Virus record (IMG/VR): IMGVR_UViG_3300014501_001233
Coordinates: 1 to 20,797 of that record
Source: a virus
Direction: 5' to 3' (one strand)
Length of the DNA stretch: 20,797 nt
Made by a program: the position numbers and the translations under genes. The notes below the pieces were generated by a model that saw only the letters and a list, made by a program, of their open reading frames with translations, was not told the DNA's origin and did no database searches. Positions 2,374 through 18,528 of the stretch are shown here, piece by piece (position 1 is the first letter of the stretch; every line of letters starts with the position of its first letter).

Positions 2374-2781
2374 TTAAGGATTAAACGTGAATGCTCCAGT
2401 GACTTTTGCGGCAAGCGTATAAGCCACTACCGCTTCAACGCTCAAGTCTACGTTTACGTCAGATACCTTGGCGTATGCCGCGCTGATCGTCGGAATACTG
2501 GAGGCCGCGTTGACGAACAACTGTAGTGCCGTCAGGATGTAGTTATTGCTTTGTAGGTTGATCGGCGCTTCGGCGGGGTCTTTGGTAGCGTCCCATTGCG
2601 CATCTACGGTAACTTCACAACCTTGTAGACCCGCCTGATACTCGTAAAAGCCGCCGCTGGTGGTAGACGTAGTGTCCAAGTCTTGCGTCATCACCTTAGC
2701 CGTCCATTTCTTCACTGATAGCGCGGTCCCGTTAACGGTAACCTTGCCAGCGTAGCCGATGAGATATTGATTCAAAGCCAT
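2374..2781 (-). CDS. Major tail tube protein
   Basis: This 135-residue protein is predicted to polymerise into the tail tube. It is beta-rich and mostly hydrophobic/Thr/Ser, with the family-typical N-terminus (short beta strand, a V-x-G-T turn and a K-W strand) and a 'GCEVTVDAQWD' segment like the 'g.ev.v.g.wd' strand of siphovirus major tail proteins. It sits upstream of the tail chaperone pair, as expected. The start is ATG with GGGGGC upstream. It is separated from the chaperone gene by about 90 bp containing only weak hairpins. At 135 residues it is a compact version without an added Ig-like domain. Confidence 0.85.
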   Translation of the reverse strand: MALNQYLIGYAGKVTVNGTALSVKKWTAKVMTQDLDTTSTTSGGFYEYQAGLQGCEVTVDAQWDATKDPAEAPINLQSNNYILTALQLFVNAASSIPTISAAYAKVSDVNVDLSVEAVVAYTLAAKVTGAFTFNP

Positions 2782-2851: not shown

Positions 2852-3553
2852 TTACGGTATCTTGACATCTTGATTCCAGCCGTAGGTGGCATTACTTCGC
2901 GGCAAGCAGCAGTTGGGATTGATCGTATAGACTTCTAAGAGCATAGCGGCATGGAGGCCGTGGGCGATGGCCGCTGGAGCCGATTGGTTGCCGACGAATA
3001 GCCTTGAGCCTTTGATCATTTGTGCGGCTTCTAACAGGTTAGCGGTTGGGAGGTACGGTAGTGGCCCTACGTCTTTCTGGAACTGCTGGTGCTCATCGGG
3101 AAGCCCTATGAAGGCCGCTTGATCGTGATATTTGGCATAAACCTTATGCCACGGGAAATGGGGATTATGGTAGCGGCTGGAGCGGCTGAAGATAATAGGG
3201 TAGTCGGTAGCCAATGGAGTTACGCGGAGCCAAGGAGTATCCCTTTCCGTCAGCGGTATATTGAAGGCTTTTAGATGCGCGTCAACAATGGATTTACTGT
3301 ACGGCATGTAGTCCCGCCAAGCGTTGAGGTTAATGGCATCGTCGGGGGCCGAAGGCGTAACGTACTGTACATCGTTGATATAGGGCTGTTGGAGCAAGAG
3401 CGGTCTTATCATGTTTACGCGCTCTTGCGTCATTCGGTGGGTAGTTTCGGGGGAGTTATAGAGGTAGAGAGTTGCGGGGGTCTTTGACAACGCTCTGATA
3501 GTTGCTAGGCCGTACAGCAAATCACCTAAATCGCCATAGTGAGCAAGGTTCAT
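2852..3553 (-). CDS. GT9-like (heptosyltransferase-type) glycosyltransferase
   Basis: This 233-residue protein resembles GT-B glycosyltransferases of family 9. The N-terminus has the GDLGDLLYGLATIRAL pattern (GT9 'G.iGD.l...p.i..L'). The C-terminal half has a strand-helix FIGLP and then the nucleotide-sugar loop SRLFVGNQSAPAAIAHGL, like the GT9 'F(V/I)GnDsG..HlAaa.G' motif. It is shorter than bacterial heptosyltransferases (about 320-350 residues), so the interdomain region is reduced. Its ATG follows the stop of the tail terminator gene after one base, with no Shine-Dalgarno of its own, so it looks translationally coupled to tail synthesis. The donor and acceptor are unknown. It could modify a virion protein or host surface sugars; I favour the virion because of co-expression with structural genes. 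Confidence 0.75.
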   Translation of the reverse strand: MNLAHYGDLGDLLYGLATIRALSKTPATLYLYNSPETTHRMTQERVNMIRPLLLQQPYINDVQYVTPSAPDDAINLNAWRDYMPYSKSIVDAHLKAFNIPLTERDTPWLRVTPLATDYPIIFSRSSRYHNPHFPWHKVYAKYHDQAAFIGLPDEHQQFQKDVGPLPYLPTANLLEAAQMIKGSRLFVGNQSAPAAIAHGLHAAMLLEVYTINPNCCLPRSNATYGWNQDVKIP

Positions 3554-3554
3554 G

Positions 3555-3977
3555 TTAATCGACTTGTCCTACGTCTTCAGTAATCAAAAACTCATACGTA
3601 ACGAAGGCGTGATAAGTCTGTTCATCTTCGGCAAGGATACCTTCGCTCTTACGAATCGTGCCGACGCTAATATCCGTCAGTTCATACTCATCCCCCAGCG
3701 TCAAGGTAACAAAGTCAAAATGCGCCTTGATTAGACCGATAGCGTTGAGCGCAACCGTATCGGTCGTAGCCCATACGCTAAACTGTACTTGAACAGTATT
3801 CAAGAGGCACGTCGGTTGGGTTTGGAAGTCGGGAGTAGCGGTTACCAAAGTCAGTACGCACGTAGGCAGCGGCTCCGCGTTGCGCGCATGAGACAGGAAA
3901 CAGCCGTTGGGGAAGATCGCCGTTAAGGCTGGTATATCGTTGAACAAGGTTTGAATACCGATTAACAGTTGGATCAA
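3555..3977 (-). CDS. Tail terminator / tail completion protein (gp17-like, DUF3168 type)
   Basis: The product is a 140-residue protein. Its N-terminal helix (LIQLLIGIQTLFNDIPALTAIF) and the later 'VQVQFSVWATTDTVALNAIGLIKAHF' section resemble HK97 gp17-type proteins, which cap the tail tube after assembly. I chose the TTG at 3975-3977 because it has an ideal AAGGGGAA Shine-Dalgarno seven bases upstream, matching the other phage genes. The frame is also open farther upstream to 4160, but that extension runs through hairpins and a dispersed repeat and has no family-like sequence. It lies after the gp10-like gene and before the tail tube gene, as in HK97-like phages. A GT9-like gene is coupled to its stop codon. 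Confidence 0.8.
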   Translation of the reverse strand: MIQLLIGIQTLFNDIPALTAIFPNGCFLSHARNAEPLPTCVLTLVTATPDFQTQPTCLLNTVQVQFSVWATTDTVALNAIGLIKAHFDFVTLTLGDEYELTDISVGTIRKSEGILAEDEQTYHAFVTYEFLITEDVGQVD

Positions 3978-3988
3978 TTTATTTCCCC

Positions 3989-4028
3989 TTCCGCAGAAAA
4001 CTGCCACGCTTGTCGTGGCAGATGAATG
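3989..4028 (+). repeat. 40-bp dispersed hairpin repeat, copy 1
   Basis: This 40-bp block is identical to the reverse complement of 18489-18528. It contains the hairpin CTGCCACG-CTTGT-CGTGGCAG (8-bp stem, 5-base loop) at about 4001-4021, flanked by conserved CCGCAGAAAA and ATGAATG. It lies directly upstream of the Shine-Dalgarno of the tail terminator gene. The flanks outside the 40 bp differ between copies. Confidence 0.85.
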
Positions 4029-4178
4029 CGGTAGCGGCCTCCGGCCGATAACGCAATAGAAACATTTGCCAAAAAGATGGAACAATCTTAAATCCTCTTC
4101 GGAGGTATTTGTCACCTGTTTTAGCAAATGCGGCAATTGAATCTGCCGCTCCGGAAGCAACTCCGTTGCCCCGGGAAT

Positions 4179-4199
4179 CCCCTACGCTTGTCGTAGGGG
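4179..4199 (+). repeat. Hairpin with the same loop as the 40-bp repeat
   Basis: The sequence is CCCCTACG-CTTGT-CGTAGGGG, a perfect 8-bp stem with a 5-base loop. The inner ACG-CTTGT-CGT core is identical to that of the 40-bp repeat, while the outer stem bases differ but remain paired. It starts five bases after the stop codon of the gp10-like gene on the minus strand. No U-tract follows, so it is not a typical intrinsic terminator. Confidence 0.7.
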
Positions 4200-4204
4200 T
4201 AAGT

Positions 4205-4570
4205 TCAATTCCCCTTTAGGATCGCTAGGATACGCGGTATCATTAGTTGGTAGGCTGGCCGTATGAACGGTCTTGCGGCCATCCGCCTACTACCTAGTTC
4301 CAGGAACTTCGCGTAGATAACATTCGTGCCAACGCGCGCTTTCATATTGGCAATGTCTATCTCATGACTGATACTGGCGCGGAGCCGTCCCAAATCTTTA
4401 TGGGGCGGCTCCCCAGCGGCCGAAGGCGTAGTGCCGTGATTCGACGGCTCCGAAATACTTTCCTTAATGGCGTTCTGGAGTTCATAAGCGGCGCGCTCAA
4501 GTTTCTTGACGGTCGTAGCCTTCAAGAGTTTCTTGAACTCCTCTCCTCTCCATGAAACATTGCTTGCCAT
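4205..4570 (-). CDS. HK97 gp10-like tail component
   Basis: The product is a 121-residue protein of the HK97 gp10 family, a minor neck/tail-joining protein. Visible family features are the N-terminal helix with LKKLERAAYELQNAIK-type residues, a 'GEPPHKDLGRLRASI' turn (family: 'aP.dTG.Lr.sI'), the 'VGTNVIYAKFLELGSRRMAARPFIRPAY' core (family: 'vgt...Ya...E.Gt....a.PFlrpA'), and a C-terminal helix. The ATG has an AGGAG Shine-Dalgarno and directly abuts the stop of the head closure gene, so the two are probably cotranslated. Length and position match the family. Confidence 0.92.
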   Translation of the reverse strand: MASNVSWRGEEFKKLLKATTVKKLERAAYELQNAIKESISEPSNHGTTPSAAGEPPHKDLGRLRASISHEIDIANMKARVGTNVIYAKFLELGSRRMAARPFIRPAYQLMIPRILAILKGN

Positions 4571-4912
4571 TTATGTTTCTCCTGTCGGTTTGCGTTCACA
4601 ATCACAAGCAAAGAGCCTGTTAAGATCGCCACCCATATTGAGGATCGACAGTACGCGGAAGTTACTCCCGTCGTAGACAAACCTATCATCTACGTTCACG
4701 TTAGGGTTAATCGCGGAGTAGATGCGATAGAGTTTAGTGCTATCGAAATCTCCGTACATTATTTTGGCAAGGTCCGCTTTCAGGTTGTCGAAGCGACAAG
4801 GGAAATTAGAGGTAACCGCTGACCAGCCGACAACAACGCCACCGGTAGGGCTTTTGCTCTGTTGCTGGACTTCAATCGTTGCCGTATGGATCATTAGTCG
4901 CGAGATACTCAT
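4571..4912 (-). CDS. Head closure protein (SPP1 gp16 / head-tail joining type)
   Basis: The product is a 113-residue beta-barrel-type protein that would close the connector after packaging and form the tail docking site. The family pattern is visible: an N-terminal R-L-M-I-H-T-A-T-I-E-V strand, then a G-G-V-x-V-G-W strand pair, a central hinge with 'ADLAKIMYGDF', and the C-terminal 'DDRFVYDGSNFRVLSILN' section (family: 'gDri...G..y.V..v.d'). It has a good AAGGGGAGAT Shine-Dalgarno and abuts the gp10-like gene. Its position after the connector gene is standard, apart from the interposed glycosyltransferase. Confidence 0.88.
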   Translation of the reverse strand: MSISRLMIHTATIEVQQQSKSPTGGVVVGWSAVTSNFPCRFDNLKADLAKIMYGDFDSTKLYRIYSAINPNVNVDDRFVYDGSNFRVLSILNMGGDLNRLFACDCERKPTGET

Positions 4913-4928
4913 ATCTCCCCTTACTCTC

Positions 4929-5324
4929 TTAGGCTCCCCACGACCTTCCTTGATTCGCCACCAGCCGCCGCTCCGTTACCTTCTCATCCGTCGCGTTCCA
5001 TGCCTTGACTTGCTCCGCTGGCCCCGCAGGGGGCCCCGTAAACTTGAAGCGTAATTCGTTGGAATGTTGTATCTCTCTGGCCCCTGGACCGTGAACCACC
5101 AGCCACCTACAGCGCGACGCCTTGGCTCTTGCCCGCAAGTCGTGGTCCTCATTGCCCCAGCCCTTATGGTCCTCATCGTAACCGCCTAACGAATAAAACG
5201 TATCGCGGTACAACCCTATGTAGCCGTTGAGGTCAGTTGAGGAATACACCACGTTATGCGGAGTATAGGTGTCCAACTGAAGGCTTAACGAAGCCCGCAA
5301 GACATTATGACTTGCGGGCCCCAA
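4929..5324 (-). CDS. Glycosyltransferase, C-terminal fragment after frameshift
   Basis: This is the second part of a GT-A fold glycosyltransferase whose N-terminal part is 5348-5620. Reading this frame upstream of the TTG at 5324 gives LVSLDADNL, which supplies the missing D-A-D metal/nucleotide-sugar motif and joins the end of the first fragment (DGDF) seamlessly. The fragment carries the acceptor-side motif GWGNEDHDL, typical of the galactosyltransferase C-terminal domain (Glyco_transf_7C, 'GWG.EDxDl'), preceded by 'LGGYDEDHKGWG'. The TTG has no Shine-Dalgarno and lies after the DAD motif, so independent translation would give an inactive piece. A functional enzyme needs a -1 shift or the loss of one base to be real only in the assembly. 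Confidence 0.75.
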   Translation of the reverse strand: MGPASHNVLRASLSLQLDTYTPHNVVYSSTDLNGYIGLYRDTFYSLGGYDEDHKGWGNEDHDLRARAKASRCRWLVVHGPGAREIQHSNELRFKFTGPPAGPAEQVKAWNATDEKVTERRLVANQGRSWGA

Positions 5325-5347
5325 CAGGTTATCGGCGTCAAGGCTGA

Positions 5348-5620
5348 CTAGAAATCCCCGTCAGCGGCCTTATGGGCTACGTTCTTGGCATGGGCGTGAT
5401 GATACGTGCCCGTATGATCGTAGAGAACGTACTTGACCTTGGGATACCTGTTGATCCCCGAAGACTTCACCCAATCGTCCAGCCCTTCGCTGTCTCCGTA
5501 ATTGACAATCACGAATTGGGTAGCCTCATCGGTAAACTTGAGGTTGTAGGGCAAGGTCTGCTTGAGGTGTTCAAGACGGCCCTTGATCGGCGTACAGTAG
5601 GAAATCAGCCCAGTATACAT
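5348..5620 (-). CDS. Glycosyltransferase (GT2/GT7C type), N-terminal fragment before frameshift
   Basis: This 90-residue fragment holds the first half of a GT-A Rossmann domain: a 'LISYCTPIKGRLEHLKQTLP' start (family 'CT.nR..hL.qTLp'), a strand FVIVNYGDSEGL, and the helix HAHAKNVAHKAADGDF that leads into the DAD motif. The stop TAG follows DGDF at once. The -1 frame continues as LVSLDADN and then the C-terminal fragment at 4929-5324. The ATG overlaps the stop of the connector gene by one base (TAATG), so translation is coupled to a structural gene. The intact product would be about 230 residues, a normal single-domain length. This is probably a broken gene; a recoding event is less likely because the site GGGGATTTC is not a canonical heptamer. 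Confidence 0.75.
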   Translation of the reverse strand: MYTGLISYCTPIKGRLEHLKQTLPYNLKFTDEATQFVIVNYGDSEGLDDWVKSSGINRYPKVKYVLYDHTGTYHHAHAKNVAHKAADGDF

Positions 5621-6537
5621 TAAATCACAAACCTTTTGTACTTGTTCAATACGCTCTTAATCTCATCGGTAATCGTCATAAAGGCGTCCAGGCGGTTCTT
5701 ATAGTTGTAATCCCCTATTCTTTCGCTGTCCTTCGTAGTATCAATTTGCGAAGCGTAATAGAGCCGCTGAACCACTTGAGCCGTCGCCAACTGAACGTCG
5801 TTAGGGACCGTCGCATAGCCAGCGGAGTACACTACTTCAACCGATTGGAACCCCCATGGAAAGTTGTAATACGTTGACGTTGACGTTGCCGTCGTAGTAG
5901 CACCAGGTTTAAGGGCTATGATCCCCGCGGCGCTGACGATAAAGTCGGAGCCGCTGACGGTAACAGGATCGGTGAAGTAAGGGAACAAGGTAACCGTAGT
6001 CAGCGCGGTAACAGGGTAGTTCTTCAACGCCAACTTATACCCACCTTCGGTAAGGTCGTAGAACTCAAGATAGTTAGTGATAACGAAATTGTTGTGACAA
6101 TAACTGACAACCGCTTGTGAAGCGGCGTCAATCAGTTGCCCTAAGAGAGTATCGTAGGTGGTAACGGTAAGGCTTAGGTATTGTTTCGCGTAGTTGAGAG
6201 TTATCAAGTCGGTGCTGTTGGGGAGGCCTCCGCCCCATTGAACGGTGCCGATGCCGATTACATCGTCGGTAGAAGCGGGGGAGCCGCCAATCTGTTGGTA
6301 GTAACTGACGCTGTAGGTTCCAGCGGTAATAATCAGCGTCGGGAAGTTTCCTTCATAGAAGCCGTCAGTAGGTTGCTCCGTCATGGCTACCGCGTACGCT
6401 GATTGGTCGGAGGTACTGTAGTTCTCAAAGGCGGAGGTAGAGTTGTTCCAGAATTGGCCAAGGCTATTAGAGACTATCGCGTAGGCCACGGCTCCGTGAA
6501 GCGGCGGTAAAGTTTGGAGCGTTAATTCATTGGCCAT
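5620..6537 (-). CDS. Head-tail connector (gp6-like) with extra N-terminal beta domain
   Basis: This is a 305-residue protein. Residues about 105-305 look like the HK97 gp6-like connector/adaptor that binds under the portal: 'LITLNYAKQYLSLTVTTYD' followed by 'LLGQLIDAASQAVVSYC', a beta-hairpin section (LALKNYPVTALTTVTL...), 'VEVVYSAGYATVPNDVQLATAQVV', and a C-terminal helix. Residues 1-104 form a separate Tyr/Thr/Ser-rich beta domain (GQFWNNSTSAFENY, GFYEGNFPTLIITAGTYSVSYYQQ), which is not part of ordinary connectors (about 100-200 residues). It has an AAAAGGGGAAT Shine-Dalgarno before ATG. The glycosyltransferase gene overlaps its stop by one base. Confidence 0.83.
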   Translation of the reverse strand: MANELTLQTLPPLHGAVAYAIVSNSLGQFWNNSTSAFENYSTSDQSAYAVAMTEQPTDGFYEGNFPTLIITAGTYSVSYYQQIGGSPASTDDVIGIGTVQWGGGLPNSTDLITLNYAKQYLSLTVTTYDTLLGQLIDAASQAVVSYCHNNFVITNYLEFYDLTEGGYKLALKNYPVTALTTVTLFPYFTDPVTVSGSDFIVSAAGIIALKPGATTTATSTSTYYNFPWGFQSVEVVYSAGYATVPNDVQLATAQVVQRLYYASQIDTTKDSERIGDYNYKNRLDAFMTITDEIKSVLNKYKRFVI

Positions 6538-6562: not shown

Positions 6563-8557
6563 TTATATCCTGTTATAGTCCAATGTTGTTGAGCCAGCAG
6601 TGTCCTGGTTAAATACGGACGTAGTGCCGGTCGATTGCGCTTGTAGGTTGATCGTCGTCGCGCCGGTTACCGTCAGTATCCAATCCAGCCCGACAGTTAC
6701 TTGGCATCCAGCGTTCAACCCATAAGAGACGAGGCGAATAGAGCCAGTTACTATTGCTGAAGTAGTAGAGTTGTATAACTGGACCGTGTTTACGTCCGAC
6801 GAGACCCCCTGACCGATTCGCATATTCGCCATGAGCCGATAGGTTCCCGCCGATGGCAAGGAAACGGTCAATCCAGTATTGGCATAACTGGTGGTTAGCG
6901 TATACGCACTTGAAAGTACCGATGAACCCGAAGCGGAAACCGCCAAAATTCCGGACGTAGGCAATGTGACGTTAGTGGTTGCTGTTAAGGTCAAGGTTGT
7001 CGCGTACGCCCCGGAGGTCGTGAATGCCCCGCCGAGGGTAATAGTCGAGCCGGCGGCATTCGCTACTCCCGTTCCCCCGTGATTAGCAGCAATTGTAGTC
7101 CCCGCCCAACCACCAGTCGTGATAGTGCCGACGGACACGAGGCTGGAAGCGGTCGTTAGGCCAGAGAGAGTAGTTAGCGTTGAATTGCTGGTTCCAGTTA
7201 TGTTGGCTGCAGAACCAGTCGTGGTCAATAATGTTCCCGAGGTCGGTAGCGTCACATTGGTTGCTGCCGTAGTTGTCAAAGTAGTGGCAAATGCGCCAGA
7301 AGTAGTGAGATTGCCAGCAAGCGTCAGCGCGAAATTATTAAAGAGCGTCCCATTGGGCAACTGGATAGTCCCCGATCCACCTGCGCTAAATACTATGTCA
7401 CCGGACGAATCAAAATACACCGACTGACTTGCGCCACCGAAGATATACTGGTTATCGGCGATTGATAATCCGCCACTGAAAGTAGTAGAGCCGAGTGTTG
7501 AGGGAATATCCGCAGCGACGAGCGACCTCATAGTAGGAATTGCCGCGCTGCCAGTCGTTGGGCCAGCAAATACCTTATTGGCTGCTTGGGTTGGTAGAGT
7601 AACAGCGAAGGTGCCACTGGAGGTAATAGCTGCTGGTGAGACAGAGAGGATACTGGGCACTGTTAGCCCAATACTGGTAACTGTCCCGCTGGTCAGTTGC
7701 GAGGTTGTCGCCAAGGTTCCCGAAGTGGGCAAAGTAAGTTGCGTGAATCCTGTAGTGGTGAACTCTATAGTATTGTTGTTAATGGTTTCAAATCCACCCG
7801 CGAGTTTCAACAGTTGTCCGTTCAGGCTGAGATTTCCGCTTCCCGAAGCGTTTAGGTAGATATTGCCACTATTATCAGCTTGTAATGATTGAGCAGAAGT
7901 GTTGCCAAAGAACAATCCCGTAGTTGAGGTCTCGCCTTGAGGAAGGATTAGCGCGCCGGTGAGAGTTCCGCCAGCAAGAGGCAGGTACGAGGCTAGAGCA
8001 GTAACAACTGCTGCTGGCGTTTCGTATCTCAAATCCAATTGTGATAATGGGAGGTCGTCACCTACAACGTACCAAATACCTGTTGAGGCTTGATACTGGA
8101 ACAGGACACCTTGCGATGGAAGTGACAGAGTATCGCTGGTTGAACCTCCCGCTTTATTAAGTACGTCGGAACCACCTGTAGAGATTACAACTGTATTTGT
8201 TCCTCCCTGAATAACCAGTTTTACACCGCAACGGGTACCGTCTGGAGGTGCGGTTGGGAGGTGGCAAGTGAGATTACCGGAGGTAGTATTGAATGGAACA
8301 AAATCGCCAGCAGCAAGATTGTAATTTGCGGTCTTGATTGCTGTTGGGAATAAACCGAGAGCGTAGGCAGCGCCAGAGAACGCCAAGGTTCCGCTGGTCA
8401 GCGTCAAGCCATTGGCGGAAGTAACAGCGGTAACGACGCCGATATCGGCGGCATTCTTGCCGCTGTCAATTAAATTGCCGTTTTCATCCAAGGCCGCGAA
8501 GTCACCAGCCGTTGCCCCTTGAACCCTGTCTGCTTTACTGTTAATCGGATTGCTCAT
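6563..8557 (-). CDS. Fibre-like Ser/Thr-rich structural protein (possible head fibre)
   Basis: This 664-residue repetitive, Ser/Thr/Gly-rich protein resembles phage fibre proteins. Recognisable pieces are a YLPLAGGTLTGAL segment (191-203), a SPAAITSSGTFAVTLP segment (about 307-322), the IAANHGGTGVANAAG motif (about 489-503) common in tail fibres, and repeats ending in TNVTLPTSG at about 413-447 and 508-541, with a weaker copy near 274-285. The C-terminus (about 552-664) looks like a trimeric jelly-roll receptor-binding head (SYANTGLTVSLPSAGTYRLMA). The gene starts with ATG after AGGGGAGAGT. It lies between the capsid and connector genes, not with tail fibres, so a capsid or neck fibre is likely. 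I infer that it is a candidate glycosylation target. Confidence 0.7.
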   Translation of the reverse strand: MSNPINSKADRVQGATAGDFAALDENGNLIDSGKNAADIGVVTAVTSANGLTLTSGTLAFSGAAYALGLFPTAIKTANYNLAAGDFVPFNTTSGNLTCHLPTAPPDGTRCGVKLVIQGGTNTVVISTGGSDVLNKAGGSTSDTLSLPSQGVLFQYQASTGIWYVVGDDLPLSQLDLRYETPAAVVTALASYLPLAGGTLTGALILPQGETSTTGLFFGNTSAQSLQADNSGNIYLNASGSGNLSLNGQLLKLAGGFETINNNTIEFTTTGFTQLTLPTSGTLATTSQLTSGTVTSIGLTVPSILSVSPAAITSSGTFAVTLPTQAANKVFAGPTTGSAAIPTMRSLVAADIPSTLGSTTFSGGLSIADNQYIFGGASQSVYFDSSGDIVFSAGGSGTIQLPNGTLFNNFALTLAGNLTTSGAFATTLTTTAATNVTLPTSGTLLTTTGSAANITGTSNSTLTTLSGLTTASSLVSVGTITTGGWAGTTIAANHGGTGVANAAGSTITLGGAFTTSGAYATTLTLTATTNVTLPTSGILAVSASGSSVLSSAYTLTTSYANTGLTVSLPSAGTYRLMANMRIGQGVSSDVNTVQLYNSTTSAIVTGSIRLVSYGLNAGCQVTVGLDWILTVTGATTINLQAQSTGTTSVFNQDTAGSTTLDYNRI

Positions 8558-8656: not shown

Positions 8657-9988
8657 TTAGGTGCGGCTACCCAATACCACGAATGGCGAATACTTCGTGT
8701 TGTTCGTCGCGTAGTTAGGGTCTTTCAGCGGTTGGGCAAGTCCAGGCTTGCCGTCAATACGGAAAGTGAATCGGAACGCCATAGCGTCCTGATTGAAGTA
8801 CAAGTGCATAGAGGTTGCGGCCTCTACTCCGCTACCTTTGGTAGCGGTAATGTAGGCTGACATATCGGCTAGGATAATGTCTCCAGGACTACCAGCAGTA
8901 GCGCAATGGAACGATTCCATAACAGGTATCCCAAGCATAGTACCGCTTGGGGTCTGTTGAATCGTACCTGGCGCGTAGTACAAGTTACGACCGCTATCGT
9001 CCTTCAAATTATAGAGGTTGTTTAACAGTGATTTATTGACAAGCCAAACAGGGCTAGGGCTGTTGGTCCTGAGGAAGACCGCAAGCATTGCCGACAAATC
9101 CTTATACGTGAAGTCGGAGCCGCTAACATATTCGTCCGCGTTCTGCGCGGTAACTACGACCGTCGCGGCATTGCCGATTATCCCTGTCGGTTGGTTGACA
9201 CCAGTACCTTGTACGATGGCCTGATTGACAGCGTAGGTAATTGCGTACCCCGCTTTGGCGGTTAGGAACTGCTCAAGCAGCACATCATTATCACTCAAGA
9301 GTTCATCGGTAACGCTGACCAGAACGCCATACTTGCTGAGAGTGAAACTCAACTGGTTCACGAAGCCGCTGCCCGATATGTTGAGCGCGGTATTATCTGG
9401 TGATATCCATGACCCGCCGATTGGGTTAGTGCCGATGGTAACAAGGTTATCAATCGGCAGTTTGAAGTATGCGGTATTGGTAACGTAGTTGCGAGTCTTC
9501 GGCAATAATGATTGCTCACTCATGATAATCGCGAATATCTCTTTAGCGTATTCAGTTGGCACCGCGTACTGACCGTCTTGCGGAACTCCGTCGCCTTCGT
9601 TCATACCTGCCTTGAGGTGAACAAGACGCTCATCGGCTTTGTTATTCACCTTGCTGCTCATGACAGCCTTAGCAAAACTACCGAAGTTGGCGAAGCCGCC
9701 CTTCGGGTCAAGCGTTGAGCGGTCGGGACCAACGTTGATAACGGGTCGCCCCTTGACTGCCTTGTTGAGAGCGTCCGCAACGGCCTTTGATACCTTGCTG
9801 TCAACGGCGATTTGAATACGTGCGTCAACGCTGTCCAGCAACTCTGTTGCGGCCTTGCTGGCAACGTCTTCAACGGTTGGCGTCACTTCTACAACAGCGT
9901 CACCAAACGCCTTTGCTTCTACGTCGGTAACTTCGATTTCTTGATCTATTTTGTGGCCGAATGCGGCCTTATTGAACTTAATTTTCAC
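8657..9988 (-). CDS. HK97-fold major capsid protein
   Basis: This 443-residue protein is expected to form the icosahedral head. Residues about 1-110 form a charged, helical delta/scaffold-like domain that is normally cleaved by the prohead protease. The HK97-fold part follows: GGFANFGSFAKAVM (N-arm), 'GQYAVPTEYAKEIF' (family 'gg.lvP.e.a.eI'), 'FKLPIDNL' and 'WISPDNTALN' beta strands, LSFTLSKYGVLVSVTDELLSD (spine helix entry), 'YAITYAVNQAIVQGTGVNQPTGI' (family 'g..eD.a.l.GdG..qP.Gi' with Gln instead of the usual acid), and 'GTMLGIPVMES' (family 'g.llG.PVv.s'). The start is GTG behind GGGGGAATCA. The gene directly follows the protease gene, as is standard. Confidence 0.95.
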   Translation of the reverse strand: MKIKFNKAAFGHKIDQEIEVTDVEAKAFGDAVVEVTPTVEDVASKAATELLDSVDARIQIAVDSKVSKAVADALNKAVKGRPVINVGPDRSTLDPKGGFANFGSFAKAVMSSKVNNKADERLVHLKAGMNEGDGVPQDGQYAVPTEYAKEIFAIIMSEQSLLPKTRNYVTNTAYFKLPIDNLVTIGTNPIGGSWISPDNTALNISGSGFVNQLSFTLSKYGVLVSVTDELLSDNDVLLEQFLTAKAGYAITYAVNQAIVQGTGVNQPTGIIGNAATVVVTAQNADEYVSGSDFTYKDLSAMLAVFLRTNSPSPVWLVNKSLLNNLYNLKDDSGRNLYYAPGTIQQTPSGTMLGIPVMESFHCATAGSPGDIILADMSAYITATKGSGVEAATSMHLYFNQDAMAFRFTFRIDGKPGLAQPLKDPNYATNNTKYSPFVVLGSRT

Positions 9989-10929: not shown

Positions 10930-11562
10930 TCACCCCTGTAATGCGTTGTCCCTTGCGGCTACGGCTTCGGCTAGCGTTTTATATTCGCCTAAATAACGTC
11001 GGACGCCGTTTATCGCGGGTAGGCGGACGCCATATGTTTTTCCGCGTCTAAAGCAAATGCCGTCGCCCCAAGGGCTTTTGCGTTCGTTCCATTTCGGCGC
11101 TTCCCCATTAATCAACCGCTCCCTGATCTTATCTGCTTCGATTTGTGCTTGCTGCTTACTGTCATAACCGCCGAAGCATCGTTGAGCACCGTCTACCGTA
11201 AAGTAGACATAGAAGCGACCCTTCATCTCGCGGACGTTACCAGGGCAACTCTGATTATAGTTATTAACCGAATACGTTACGTTGCGTAGGTTGGCTTTGC
11301 GATTGTCCAGAATATCATGGTTGATATGGTCAACTACAAAACCTTCAGGCGGAGCCATAATCACACGATGAAGGTAAATGCGGCCTAATCGCCATTTACT
11401 CGCAATGGCATAACCGTGTATAGCAATCGCCCATGTTGATCCCTTTGCCTTATCAACGTCTTCAGGGTCGATTAAGATCGTTCCCTTTAGGTGTTCTCCG
11501 TCCCTAACTTCTATAGAAACGTAGTCTCCGCAATCCAGATAAATGTTAGTATATCTTTTCAT
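10930..11562 (-). CDS. HNH homing endonuclease with AP2-like DNA-binding domains
   Basis: This 210-residue protein joins an HNH_3 nuclease to two AP2-like three-stranded DNA-binding domains. The nuclease core is LHRVIM (64-69), then VDHINHDILDNRKANLRNVT (77-96, with the D-H-I-N-x-D signature) and NN (100-101). AP2-like units follow at about 114-150 (GRFYVYFTVDGAQRCFGGYDS, with an A-x-x-A-x helix) and 168-210 (KTYGVRLPAINGVRRYLGEYKT). Such enzymes are typical free-standing homing endonucleases inserted between phage structural genes. It stands between portal-MuF and protease, where phages normally have no gene. The ATG directly follows AAGGGGA, which is closer than ideal, so initiation may depend on coupling to the portal stop six bases upstream. 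Confidence 0.88.
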   Translation of the reverse strand: MKRYTNIYLDCGDYVSIEVRDGEHLKGTILIDPEDVDKAKGSTWAIAIHGYAIASKWRLGRIYLHRVIMAPPEGFVVDHINHDILDNRKANLRNVTYSVNNYNQSCPGNVREMKGRFYVYFTVDGAQRCFGGYDSKQQAQIEADKIRERLINGEAPKWNERKSPWGDGICFRRGKTYGVRLPAINGVRRYLGEYKTLAEAVAARDNALQG

Positions 11563-11567
11563 TCCCC

Positions 11568-14228
11568 TTATTCGTCCTCATTCTCTTGCGAGGAATCGTC
11601 TTCCACGTCGGTATCGCCACCGCTCGCGGCGTCAGGGTCTAAGACTTCGAGTAGCGCGCACCCGCAAGAAGGATGGATCGGGACAGCCCCCGAAGCGTCC
11701 ACCTCCCCCGAATCATCATAATCATCTATGTCTACTTCTTCGTCAGAATATTCCTGACAAACTGGGCATGCGTCGGAACTCACTAAATATTTGAAGCCTT
11801 TGACAATTTTCGAAGCCTTAGCGGCTGTCACTTGACCGCTGGTTACTGCCGCCGCTACTTCCGTTCTCGCGATACGCTCCGCTTGATAATCTTCCGCGTT
11901 CTCAAAAAAGTCACTTACCTTTTGCGTCAAGGTGTCAATACTGTCGCCCTCCAGCGTACCGTCTTCCACCAAGTCCCTGACGCCGCTTACCACGTCAGTA
12001 AGGCTCTTGCGAGTAGTTACCATCGTTGAATGAGCAAACTTGTAGGCACGTTTGTCTACCGCGTCGGAAATGCCCCTTGGGACCACCGCAAACGAATCGG
12101 GAGACGCTCCGACCCTAGTAAGCCGTTGCTCCGTCGCTTCAGCGCTCTTTTGTGCTTGGATTTCTATCAGGGGTTTCACGCGGTAGGCTAAATCGTCTTC
12201 CGTCCCTTTTAAGTTATCTATCCAATCGTCGATATCCGTAAAGGCTGTCGGTACTTTTCCAGTATCCGCCTTCAGCGTTACGCCTTCGGCGGCCTTCGTT
12301 ATTAGTGATATCTCAACACTTTTCTTAATCGTCTTGAGCGCGTCTTTTTTCAAGTCGGAGAACCAACCCGCTACAGCCGTCTTGATCTTCTTCACGGCCG
12401 CTTGCGTCGGGGTCGGCTGTAGAGCGGCCTTTCTGGTGCCGCCTTCGGCGTTAGGCCGTAGGCCGCCTTCACAAGCGACGCAATGTCCCTTTTGCGGCGG
12501 CCTACGGCCTAACGCAAACTTCGTTTGCGGCGTTTGAATGCTCAATGGCGGATTATGCCCCACCAGCGCCTTCGCTTCGGCAAAACCCAATTGCTCCGCA
12601 AGGTTAATGGCGACGGCACGGCTCATCGTTCCCGCCGCTACGTCCAGGTTGACGGCGCGGAGCCGATCCCACCGCTTGCCTTCGGCGTCTTGATCGTCGG
12701 CGCTGTCGCCATCGTCGGTAGGCTTCGGAGCCGCTTCGGTCGGTTGATCGTCGGGGGCCGATTGATCGTCTGGCGTTGCCAGCCTTACCGTGGTCGTAGA
12801 AGTAAAGTCGTCTCCGCCCTCTACAGGCTCCAACCCCAAACGCTCCCTTACGTCGTTCTTAGTGATTGCTCCAACCTTAGCCGCCGCATCCCACCTTGCG
12901 TCTTCCGCTTTCTGTTGCTCCAATTCAAACTCTTCATCTTCGGGAATAGGATTATCAAATTGTAAGAACACTCCATCATCGTCAAGCCCTAATTTGTCCT
13001 TATTCTCATTTAGAACTTGGTCAAACAAGTTAACGCGCGGCAAAATACATTGCCTACGATAGAGTTCTAGGCTTGCTTCCATATTGGCATAATTGGAATC
13101 CTTATCTATCAAGGCTGGTGGGTAAGCAAAAGCATTGGCAACCAACTTAATCACTTCATCGTTAATCTTCAAACCCGCAAGGTCGGTCGGTTGCCAAAAC
13201 AATGGCTTGATATCCACCGACTTGTCAAGTATCAGCGGCTTGCCGTTATTGCCGCCGCTTAATCGTTGCTTGTACAGTTGCTCAATACGTGCCCGTTCGT
13301 TCTCGTCCAATACGTCAATCTTAGGAATAATCACCACGTCAGCCCTACTACGGTTCGTCAAGGTAGAGTTGAGCAAGTCAGTATATTGGCTTGACTGTAA
13401 GACCGACCTTATGGCGCTTCTTAACGGAGACAAGCCGCCACCGAAGCGGTCGCTACTGGTGATAAAGCGGAAGTCTATCACTTGCTCTTTAGGGATAATG
13501 GTTACTTTGGTCAAATCGGGACCGTCACTAGGATTGGTTGGTCCCTCAACGATGTAGCCTTCGATGAGGTTGAAGTATTGATAGCAAACTACGTAGCCGC
13601 TCATGTCTCGCAAAGGTATCATGCGTTGCGGAGCAAGCGGAGTAATCCGCTTTTGTCCGCCATCGCCTTCGTCAATGTACCAATACGCTCTACCCATTAT
13701 CTCTAAATCTTGATCTGTCAACTTGAACAACTGGTGGCCGTTTATATCTTCGTTGACAGTACAAAGTAGATCGATCCAAGGATGTTCAGTGACTTCTACG
13801 ATGTCCTCATCGTCACTAAGCATCTTGCGGCGCGCTTTGACTTTATTCTGTTGGTTCTTAGTGAGTTTCCGAATGCCTTTGAGGCTCATACTTTTCGATA
13901 CTTTGCCACTGACAGGCTTATAGAGTTTCCAAGGGGTAGAGGCGACAGCGGTGGAATTGCGGTCTACGAAGATATAAGCCAGCGGGTTATTGATCGCTTC
14001 GGAGAGTAAGGTGTAATCGGAGATAGGACGGCGCATGCCGTTGGAGTTGCCGTAGCCTCCGATACTGTCTCCCATGAAGGACCAAATCTTTTCTACTTGG
14101 GCGATTTGATCTTTAGTGATTACCCCCCCTTTGTAGTATTCCGCGGCGCTGAAACCTAGGTTGACCAGGTCGGCCTCCGCCACGTAGAGCGGTTGATTGA
14201 AGTGCGTATGCCTAGTTTTGAAGTTCAA
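11568..14228 (-). CDS. Portal protein fused to MuF-type head morphogenesis domain
   Basis: This 886-residue fusion has residues about 50-480 as an HK97-type portal (NPLAYIFVDRNSTAVASTPWKLY; DQDLEIMGRAYWYI; PLRSAIRSVLQSS; NAFAYPPALID; ASLELYRRQCILPRV), which forms the dodecameric DNA gate. An acidic linker (about 500-560) and an in-frame palindromic insert (about 572-600) follow. The C-terminal part (about 640-860) is a MuF/SPP1 gp7-like domain, with 'YQAERIARTEVAAAVTSGQ', the metal-binding-like 'SSDACPVCQEY' and 'IHPSCGCALLEV'. MuF proteins are minor head proteins, sometimes ejected with DNA. The start is TTG after GGGGGAACT, in frame with the portal N-terminus. Portal-MuF fusions are known but not common. 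No C-terminal toxin domain is seen. Confidence 0.93.
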   Translation of the reverse strand: MNFKTRHTHFNQPLYVAEADLVNLGFSAAEYYKGGVITKDQIAQVEKIWSFMGDSIGGYGNSNGMRRPISDYTLLSEAINNPLAYIFVDRNSTAVASTPWKLYKPVSGKVSKSMSLKGIRKLTKNQQNKVKARRKMLSDDEDIVEVTEHPWIDLLCTVNEDINGHQLFKLTDQDLEIMGRAYWYIDEGDGGQKRITPLAPQRMIPLRDMSGYVVCYQYFNLIEGYIVEGPTNPSDGPDLTKVTIIPKEQVIDFRFITSSDRFGGGLSPLRSAIRSVLQSSQYTDLLNSTLTNRSRADVVIIPKIDVLDENERARIEQLYKQRLSGGNNGKPLILDKSVDIKPLFWQPTDLAGLKINDEVIKLVANAFAYPPALIDKDSNYANMEASLELYRRQCILPRVNLFDQVLNENKDKLGLDDDGVFLQFDNPIPEDEEFELEQQKAEDARWDAAAKVGAITKNDVRERLGLEPVEGGDDFTSTTTVRLATPDDQSAPDDQPTEAAPKPTDDGDSADDQDAEGKRWDRLRAVNLDVAAGTMSRAVAINLAEQLGFAEAKALVGHNPPLSIQTPQTKFALGRRPPQKGHCVACEGGLRPNAEGGTRKAALQPTPTQAAVKKIKTAVAGWFSDLKKDALKTIKKSVEISLITKAAEGVTLKADTGKVPTAFTDIDDWIDNLKGTEDDLAYRVKPLIEIQAQKSAEATEQRLTRVGASPDSFAVVPRGISDAVDKRAYKFAHSTMVTTRKSLTDVVSGVRDLVEDGTLEGDSIDTLTQKVSDFFENAEDYQAERIARTEVAAAVTSGQVTAAKASKIVKGFKYLVSSDACPVCQEYSDEEVDIDDYDDSGEVDASGAVPIHPSCGCALLEVLDPDAASGGDTDVEDDSSQENEDE
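12440..12529 (-). repeat. In-frame palindromic element inside the portal-MuF linker
   Basis: GCGTTAGGCCGTAGGCCGCC (12448-12467) and its perfect reverse complement (12496-12515) are 20 bp each and enclose 28 bases. Adjoining small hairpins are CGCC-TTC-GGCG (12440-12450) and CGCAAAC-TTC-GTTTGCG (12513-12529). The element translates as FALGRRPPQKGHCVACEGGL and RPNAEGG in the portal frame, a low-information stretch between two folded domains. This resembles the in-frame palindromic elements known from Rickettsia and other genomes. Whether it is mobile is inference. Confidence 0.75.
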
Positions 14229-18488: not shown

Positions 18489-18528
18489 CATTCATCTGCC
18501 ACGACAAGCGTGGCAGTTTTCTGCGGAA
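18489..18528 (-). repeat. 40-bp dispersed hairpin repeat, copy 2
   Basis: This is the exact reverse complement of 3989-4028. It lies in the leader of the methyltransferase gene, so the hairpin would be in its 5' untranslated RNA. Copy 1 also lies immediately upstream of a gene, but in the opposite orientation relative to transcription. Because the hairpin is palindromic, only the flanks (CCGCAGAAAA, ATGAATG) define orientation. Confidence 0.85.

Follow-up and report, generated by a model that had tools for sequence, protein, structure and literature searches.

Two glycosyltransferase genes in the late operon

The window analysed here is an entire environmental contig of 20,797 bases (IMG/VR record IMGVR_UViG_3300014501_001233), which appears to represent the late and left-arm part of a temperate siphophage-like virus, encoded on the minus strand. 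Two genes for predicted glycosyltransferases (GTs), an interrupted gene of GT-A type and an intact GT9-like gene of GT-B type, were found among its late genes. In minus-strand order, these encode the large terminase, a portal fused to a MuF-type domain, a protease, the major capsid protein (MCP), a Ser/Thr-rich fibre-like protein, the head-tail adaptor (connector), the GT-A, head completion and neck proteins, the tail terminator, the GT9-like protein, a putative tail tube, a tail chaperone pair and the tape measure. The genes around the two GT genes (MCP, head-tail adaptor, head completion, neck, tail terminator and tape measure) were identified as virion genes by PHROG or Pfam matches. A DNA methylase gene and an integrase-like gene lie upstream, and no tRNA gene was found in the window.

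The initial annotation had described an overlap (TAATG) between the connector gene and the start of the GT-A gene, and a gap of one base between the tail terminator stop and the GT9-like start. Both were found, the first at positions 5622–5618 and the second between a stop at 3557–3555 and an ATG at 3553. Overlapping or one-base-apart starts within a late operon imply that the two GTs are synthesised together with the connector proteins. The presence of two unrelated GT folds in the late operon was also upheld, and each family recurs beside virion genes in unrelated phages.

Relatives of the phage itself are distant. No near DNA match to the window was present in INPHARED, the terminase shared 24–35% identity with its relatives in viral contigs and had none in the genomes searched, and the MCP had no relative in viral contigs and shared 29% identity with a Bradyrhizobium phage.

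State of the GT-A gene

The GT-A gene had been taken to be a single gene spanning 5620–4929, but these 692 nucleotides (nt) are not a multiple of three and a TAG stop is present at 5350–5348. Both catalytic motifs, DADN and GWGNED, occur only in the downstream part, which is in the -1 frame. When one missing base is bridged, joining GDF to LVSLDADN, the product is a protein of 230 amino acids (aa) that scores above the Pfam cut-offs for PF10111 (46.6 bits; cut-off 27.3) and PF02709 (33.3 bits; cut-off 23), and the GWGNED region aligns weakly with a beta-1,4-galactosyltransferase (E 0.07). On these profile matches, the joined protein is clearly a GT2/GT7C-type GT-A enzyme, and the family originally proposed therefore holds for the two halves joined but not for a single open reading frame. 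The joined protein resembles other GT2/GT7C enzymes in its two motifs and differs from them in being short and split over two frames.

The joined protein shares about 28–48% identity with 31 viral relatives, and its alignments with these and with a relative of 295 aa are ungapped at the joint. In all 31, the codons at this point lie in one open frame, and therefore the window has lost one base, immediately ahead of the DxD motif. As no start codon is present upstream of the DxD motif in the C-terminal part, neither half alone could be an enzyme. Judged from these alignments, the break is a private one-base loss, due to either recent mutation or sequence error, rather than a site of conserved recoding. 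Before the joint, coding-like codon bias is seen in frame 0, and after it in the -1 frame, with the switch at the same point. The remaining long genes of the window are all in frame, and the pattern is consistent with either an error in the sequence or a mutation that is very recent.

The chance that the base missing at 5351 reflects faulty sequencing or assembly, and that the actual phage carries an intact gene, is about even. This estimate concerns only the condition of the gene and does not compete with the functional readings considered below. The open frame of every other long gene favours an error, as do indels at other sites in related contigs, with the GT-A gene of contig L040 broken elsewhere and an oxygenase gene of L035 in a shifted frame. 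However, the site (GGGGATTTCTAG) contains no long homopolymer run, and no near-identical second copy of the junction was found in the viral contigs. Programmed -1 frameshifting at GAU UUC UAG, which would produce the full-length GT-A with the 90-aa form as a by-product, is very improbable. Re-pairing of tRNA-Phe from UUC to UUU is possible and the local structure is modest (z -2.0), but the site does not conform to the canonical X XXY YYZ pattern of a slippery heptamer, about 30 nt separate it from the strong hairpin, and none of the 31 relatives needs a shift at this point. If the sequence is correct, the missing base knocks out the GT-A gene just before its DxD motif, leaving the GT9-like enzyme as the only one of the two that the deposited genome would produce.

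The GT9-like protein and the genetic context of both families

The GT-B fold predicted for the GT9-like protein was borne out by an AlphaFold2 model, built from three sequences. A Foldseek search with this model matched a GT9 enzyme with an E-value of 1.6e-6, and the top 20 matches were all GT9. VIA-align superimposed the model on WaaC with a Z score of 12.7 (205 residues, 3.9 Å), on WaaF with 12.1 and on TibC with 11.6. GT9 structures spanned 12.7–11.5 and unrelated ones began at 7.7, with the exception of NDH-PSI subunits at 11.3–10.4. The GT9 assignment is thus supported by structure but not by profile, as the match to the Pfam GT9 model (PF01075) was below the cut-off (11.8 of 22 bits, E 0.15), and no PHROG match was found. 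GT9 enzymes are classically lipopolysaccharide heptosyltransferases. The window protein shares the two-Rossmann GT-B fold of WaaC, WaaF and the protein heptosyltransferase TibC over all 233 of its residues, but is about 90 residues shorter than these and only 11–17% identical. The positions of the GT motifs and of other features are listed in Table 1.

Table 1. Positions of the glycosyltransferase genes, their motifs and relevant virion genes in the window
Feature	Coordinates	Strand	Basis
GT-A N-terminal part, 90 codons from ATG 5620, nucleotide-sugar-binding half	5351..5620	-	Aligns with 31 viral relatives
Premature TAG at the point of one-base loss	5348..5350	-	31/31 relatives open here
GT-A C-terminal part, -1 frame, 140 codons	4929..5351	-	PF02709, 34.4 bits alone
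DxD-type motif DADN of GT-A, lost to frame-0 translation	5328..5339	-	-1 frame, relatives alignment
GWGNED motif, GT7C/GT2-type GT-A	5145..5162	-	-1 frame, relatives alignment
GT9-like GT-B glycosyltransferase, 233 aa, intact	2852..3553	-	AlphaFold2 predicted local distance difference test (pLDDT) 78, predicted template modelling score 0.78
GDLGD motif, invariant in all three members	3521..3535	-	Three-member alignment
RSSRYHNPHFPW motif, nearly invariant in three members	3149..3184	-	Three-member alignment
GNQSAPAAIA motif, in a region with partial alignment to the GT9 Pfam model; GNQS-P-A invariant in three	2963..2992	-	
Head-tail adaptor (connector), stop overlaps GT-A start	5620..6537	-	phrog_442, 1.3e-25; PF05135
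Tail terminator, likely start near 3976, stop one base before GT9-like gene	3555..3976	-	PF11367, phrog_176
Fibre-like protein, 28.5% Ser+Thr, candidate acceptor	6563..8557	-	Only first 43 aa match phrog_31688
Major capsid protein, candidate acceptor	8657..9988	-	phrog_10, 1.1e-40
Putative tail tube, candidate acceptor	2374..2781	-	Position and sequence style only

The only relatives of the GT9-like protein found were encoded by two IMG/VR contigs of an unrelated phage type, L002 (39% identity) and L003 (37%), where the gene is located between the terminase and portal genes and a LAGLIDADG-like gene follows. The terminase and portal were assigned by reading the sequences, and neither had a PHROG match. 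The homologue thus belongs to the packaging/portal gene block in L002 and L003. The contigs differ in their terminase and portal, which are unrelated to those of the window, in a C-terminal extension of about 100 aa, in the LAGLIDADG gene and in that no GT-A gene was found in them. An adjacent gene for a 259-aa protein in L002 and L003 looked GT-like by eye but was rejected, as it matched neither Pfam nor PHROG families, profile comparison gave no match to GT-A, and its model reached a pLDDT of only 39.

Relatives of the GT-A gene were also found next to virion genes. In L019, L022 and L034, the gene is beside genes for the tail sheath and sheath-N-like proteins, with a baseplate gene on the other side in L019, and in L025 it is among genes for the same sheath-N-like proteins, near the portal gene. 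The sheath-N-like proteins in these four contigs are short, are present in several copies around the GT-A, and share about 90 N-terminal residues with the tail sheath family before diverging; they are possible decoration proteins. In the L013 lineage, the GT-A gene immediately follows a 2OG-Fe(II) oxygenase gene, and the two are placed between the genes for the portal and for an Mtd-type tail fibre, suggesting hydroxylation and then glycosylation of a fibre protein. The oxygenase-like gene (L013:6393-7016) overlaps the GT-A start, carries the PHROG label endonuclease V and has homologues in L020, L021, L026–L029 and L031; L028 additionally encodes a collagen-like protein (13218-14060). In L014–L017 and L024, the GT-A is adjacent to or fused with a Methyltransf_24 methyltransferase, both domains being in one reading frame at L024:6437-7741.

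Linkage to virion genes was therefore seen in all three known members of the GT9-like family, while the picture for GT-A is mixed, the neighbours being virion genes in some records and glycan-gene clusters in others. A claim that the structural linkage of GT-A exceeds chance was dropped, as it involves roughly 4 of 11 lineages against the large structural share of phage genes. Proteins matching Pfam GT9 are encoded in 10 of the 31 GT-A records, within a few kb of the GT-A gene in L024, L030 and L037, but the window's own GT9-like family was absent from the GT-A records searched. The two-enzyme arrangement thus recurs loosely, and the exact pair is unique to the window among the records searched. 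The best INPHARED match to the GT-A, MT837976, was set aside as a phage relative, being an unverified scaffold with neighbours that look bacterial.

Several further features of the window were recorded. About 230 nt between the neck and tail terminator genes (3975-4210) fold far better than shuffled sequences (z -5.1), forming hairpins with the common loop ACGACAAGCGT, and a 40-nt part of this element recurs exactly, in inverted orientation, at 18489-18528, near the start of the DNA methylase gene. By eye it resembles an IS200/IS605-type palindromic element lacking tnpA and tnpB, and no Rfam match was found. At its N-terminus, the head-tail adaptor carries about 107 additional residues, a domain outside the coverage of the adaptor families. 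The overlapping frames between tail tube and tape measure genes (1617-2284) look like the usual G/GT tail-chaperone frameshift pair, and a perfect 20-bp inverted repeat with a 28-nt loop lies in frame within the portal-MuF linker (12448-12515).

Possible roles of the two enzymes

Glycosylation of capsids and tail tubes by phage enzymes, the parallel drawn in the initial annotation, is real (PMC12363180). Phage enzymes glycosylate the capsid and tail tube in Che8 (gp110), Corndog (gp38) and Myrna (Freeman et al. 2023, as cited in PMC12363180 and PMC11600133). In cluster O mycobacteriophages an O-methyltransferase gene is followed by three GT genes (PMC11600133), an order similar to that of methyltransferase and GT-A in L014–L017 and L024. 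Given late co-synthesis and these published examples, virion glycosylation is our best guess at the role of the window pair in intact form. We tentatively propose, at somewhat short of an even chance, that the late-expressed pair, when intact, attaches sugars to virion proteins during particle assembly.

In this scheme, for which we infer GT activity, donor, acceptor and order of addition, both GT genes would be translationally coupled to the head-tail connector genes and expressed late, so that the enzymes would encounter the subunits of capsid, tube and fibre. The nucleotide-sugar would be held by the DxD motif of the GT-A, and the compact GT9-like enzyme would add the first or second sugar. 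Possible acceptors are the fibre-like protein, the capsid and the tail tube. The fibre-like protein is Ser/Thr-rich as claimed, with the highest Ser+Thr content (28.5%, compared with 20.3% in the connector). The Thr/Ser-rich character of the putative tail tube was not confirmed, its content of 17.8% comparing with a window mean of 14.6%, and this protein had no Pfam or PHROG match.

Virion glycosylation is supported by gene order, by the folds and families of the two enzymes and by the linkage of each family elsewhere, but several findings weigh against it. The GT-A gene is frameshifted in the window, the pair recurs in no other record searched and nothing in the analysis identifies an acceptor. 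Structural genes make up a large part of any phage genome, and linkage to them in many lineages could have arisen by chance. In addition, GT-A relatives in L012, L023, L036, L041 and others are in glycan-gene clusters, beside GtrB-like or other GT genes, and could act on host surface glycans.

These relatives, and the classical role of GT9 enzymes in lipopolysaccharide synthesis, favour modification of host lipopolysaccharide or capsule that would block superinfection or change the receptor. Host-surface modification has been argued for phage GTs in host-recognition clusters (PMC7029224). It is a live rival but nonetheless unlikely here, as a position in the late structural operon would be odd for lysogenic conversion and no gtrA/gtrB-type partner was found in the window. 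Somewhat less unlikely is that the GT genes ride along in the late operon as passenger cargo and that the GT-A is a real, recent pseudogene. An HNH endonuclease gene (10930-11562) and the structured insert at 3975-4210 indicate that the operon tolerates insertions, the one-base loss occurs where all 31 relatives are open, and the GT9-like gene has few relatives. However, coding bias in both halves, the lack of a second stop over 140 codons and the retention of every motif show that decay has barely begun, and the tight couplings suggest selection for late expression. Phage GTs that glucosylate modified DNA bases also exist. Such a role, which is named in PMC7029224, is highly improbable for these enzymes, as no hydroxymethylase or base-synthesis gene was seen in the window; the fold matches listed did not include a DNA glucosyltransferase either, although that absence alone rules nothing out.

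Virion glycosylation, the preferred reading, is of a kind already known from mycobacteriophages such as Che8 and Corndog, and its novelty is modest. Like Che8, Corndog and Myrna, the window encodes more than one GT, but it has no O-methyltransferase gene, its GT-A is broken, and glycan on its particles is a prediction from genes. The window GTs had no detectable sequence match in the named isolate phages or in any mycobacteriophage (tblastn against INPHARED, without direct comparison to Corndog). A broader proposal, which we consider speculative and rather unlikely, is that the GT9-like family, which is dark to Pfam and PHROG and was seen exclusively in structural operons of phages, consists of dedicated glycosyltransferases for virion proteins, and that with the small GT-A family, often accompanied in other phages by a 2OG-Fe(II) oxygenase or methyltransferase, it forms a late, multi-step system for hydroxylation, glycosylation or methylation of virion proteins in environmental phages well beyond the actinobacteriophages.

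The GT-A of the window should not be counted as functional before read-level checking. More broadly, the lead is a small family of phage GT-A enzymes that, together with an oxygenase, a methyltransferase or a second GT, adjoins virion genes, and the idea is testable in at least one record, L025, which is isolate-derived going by its IMG name and carries the GT-A beside virion genes. If virion glycosylation holds for intact homologues, self-glycosylation of phages would extend far beyond the mycobacteriophages and would be predictable from GT genes in structural operons.

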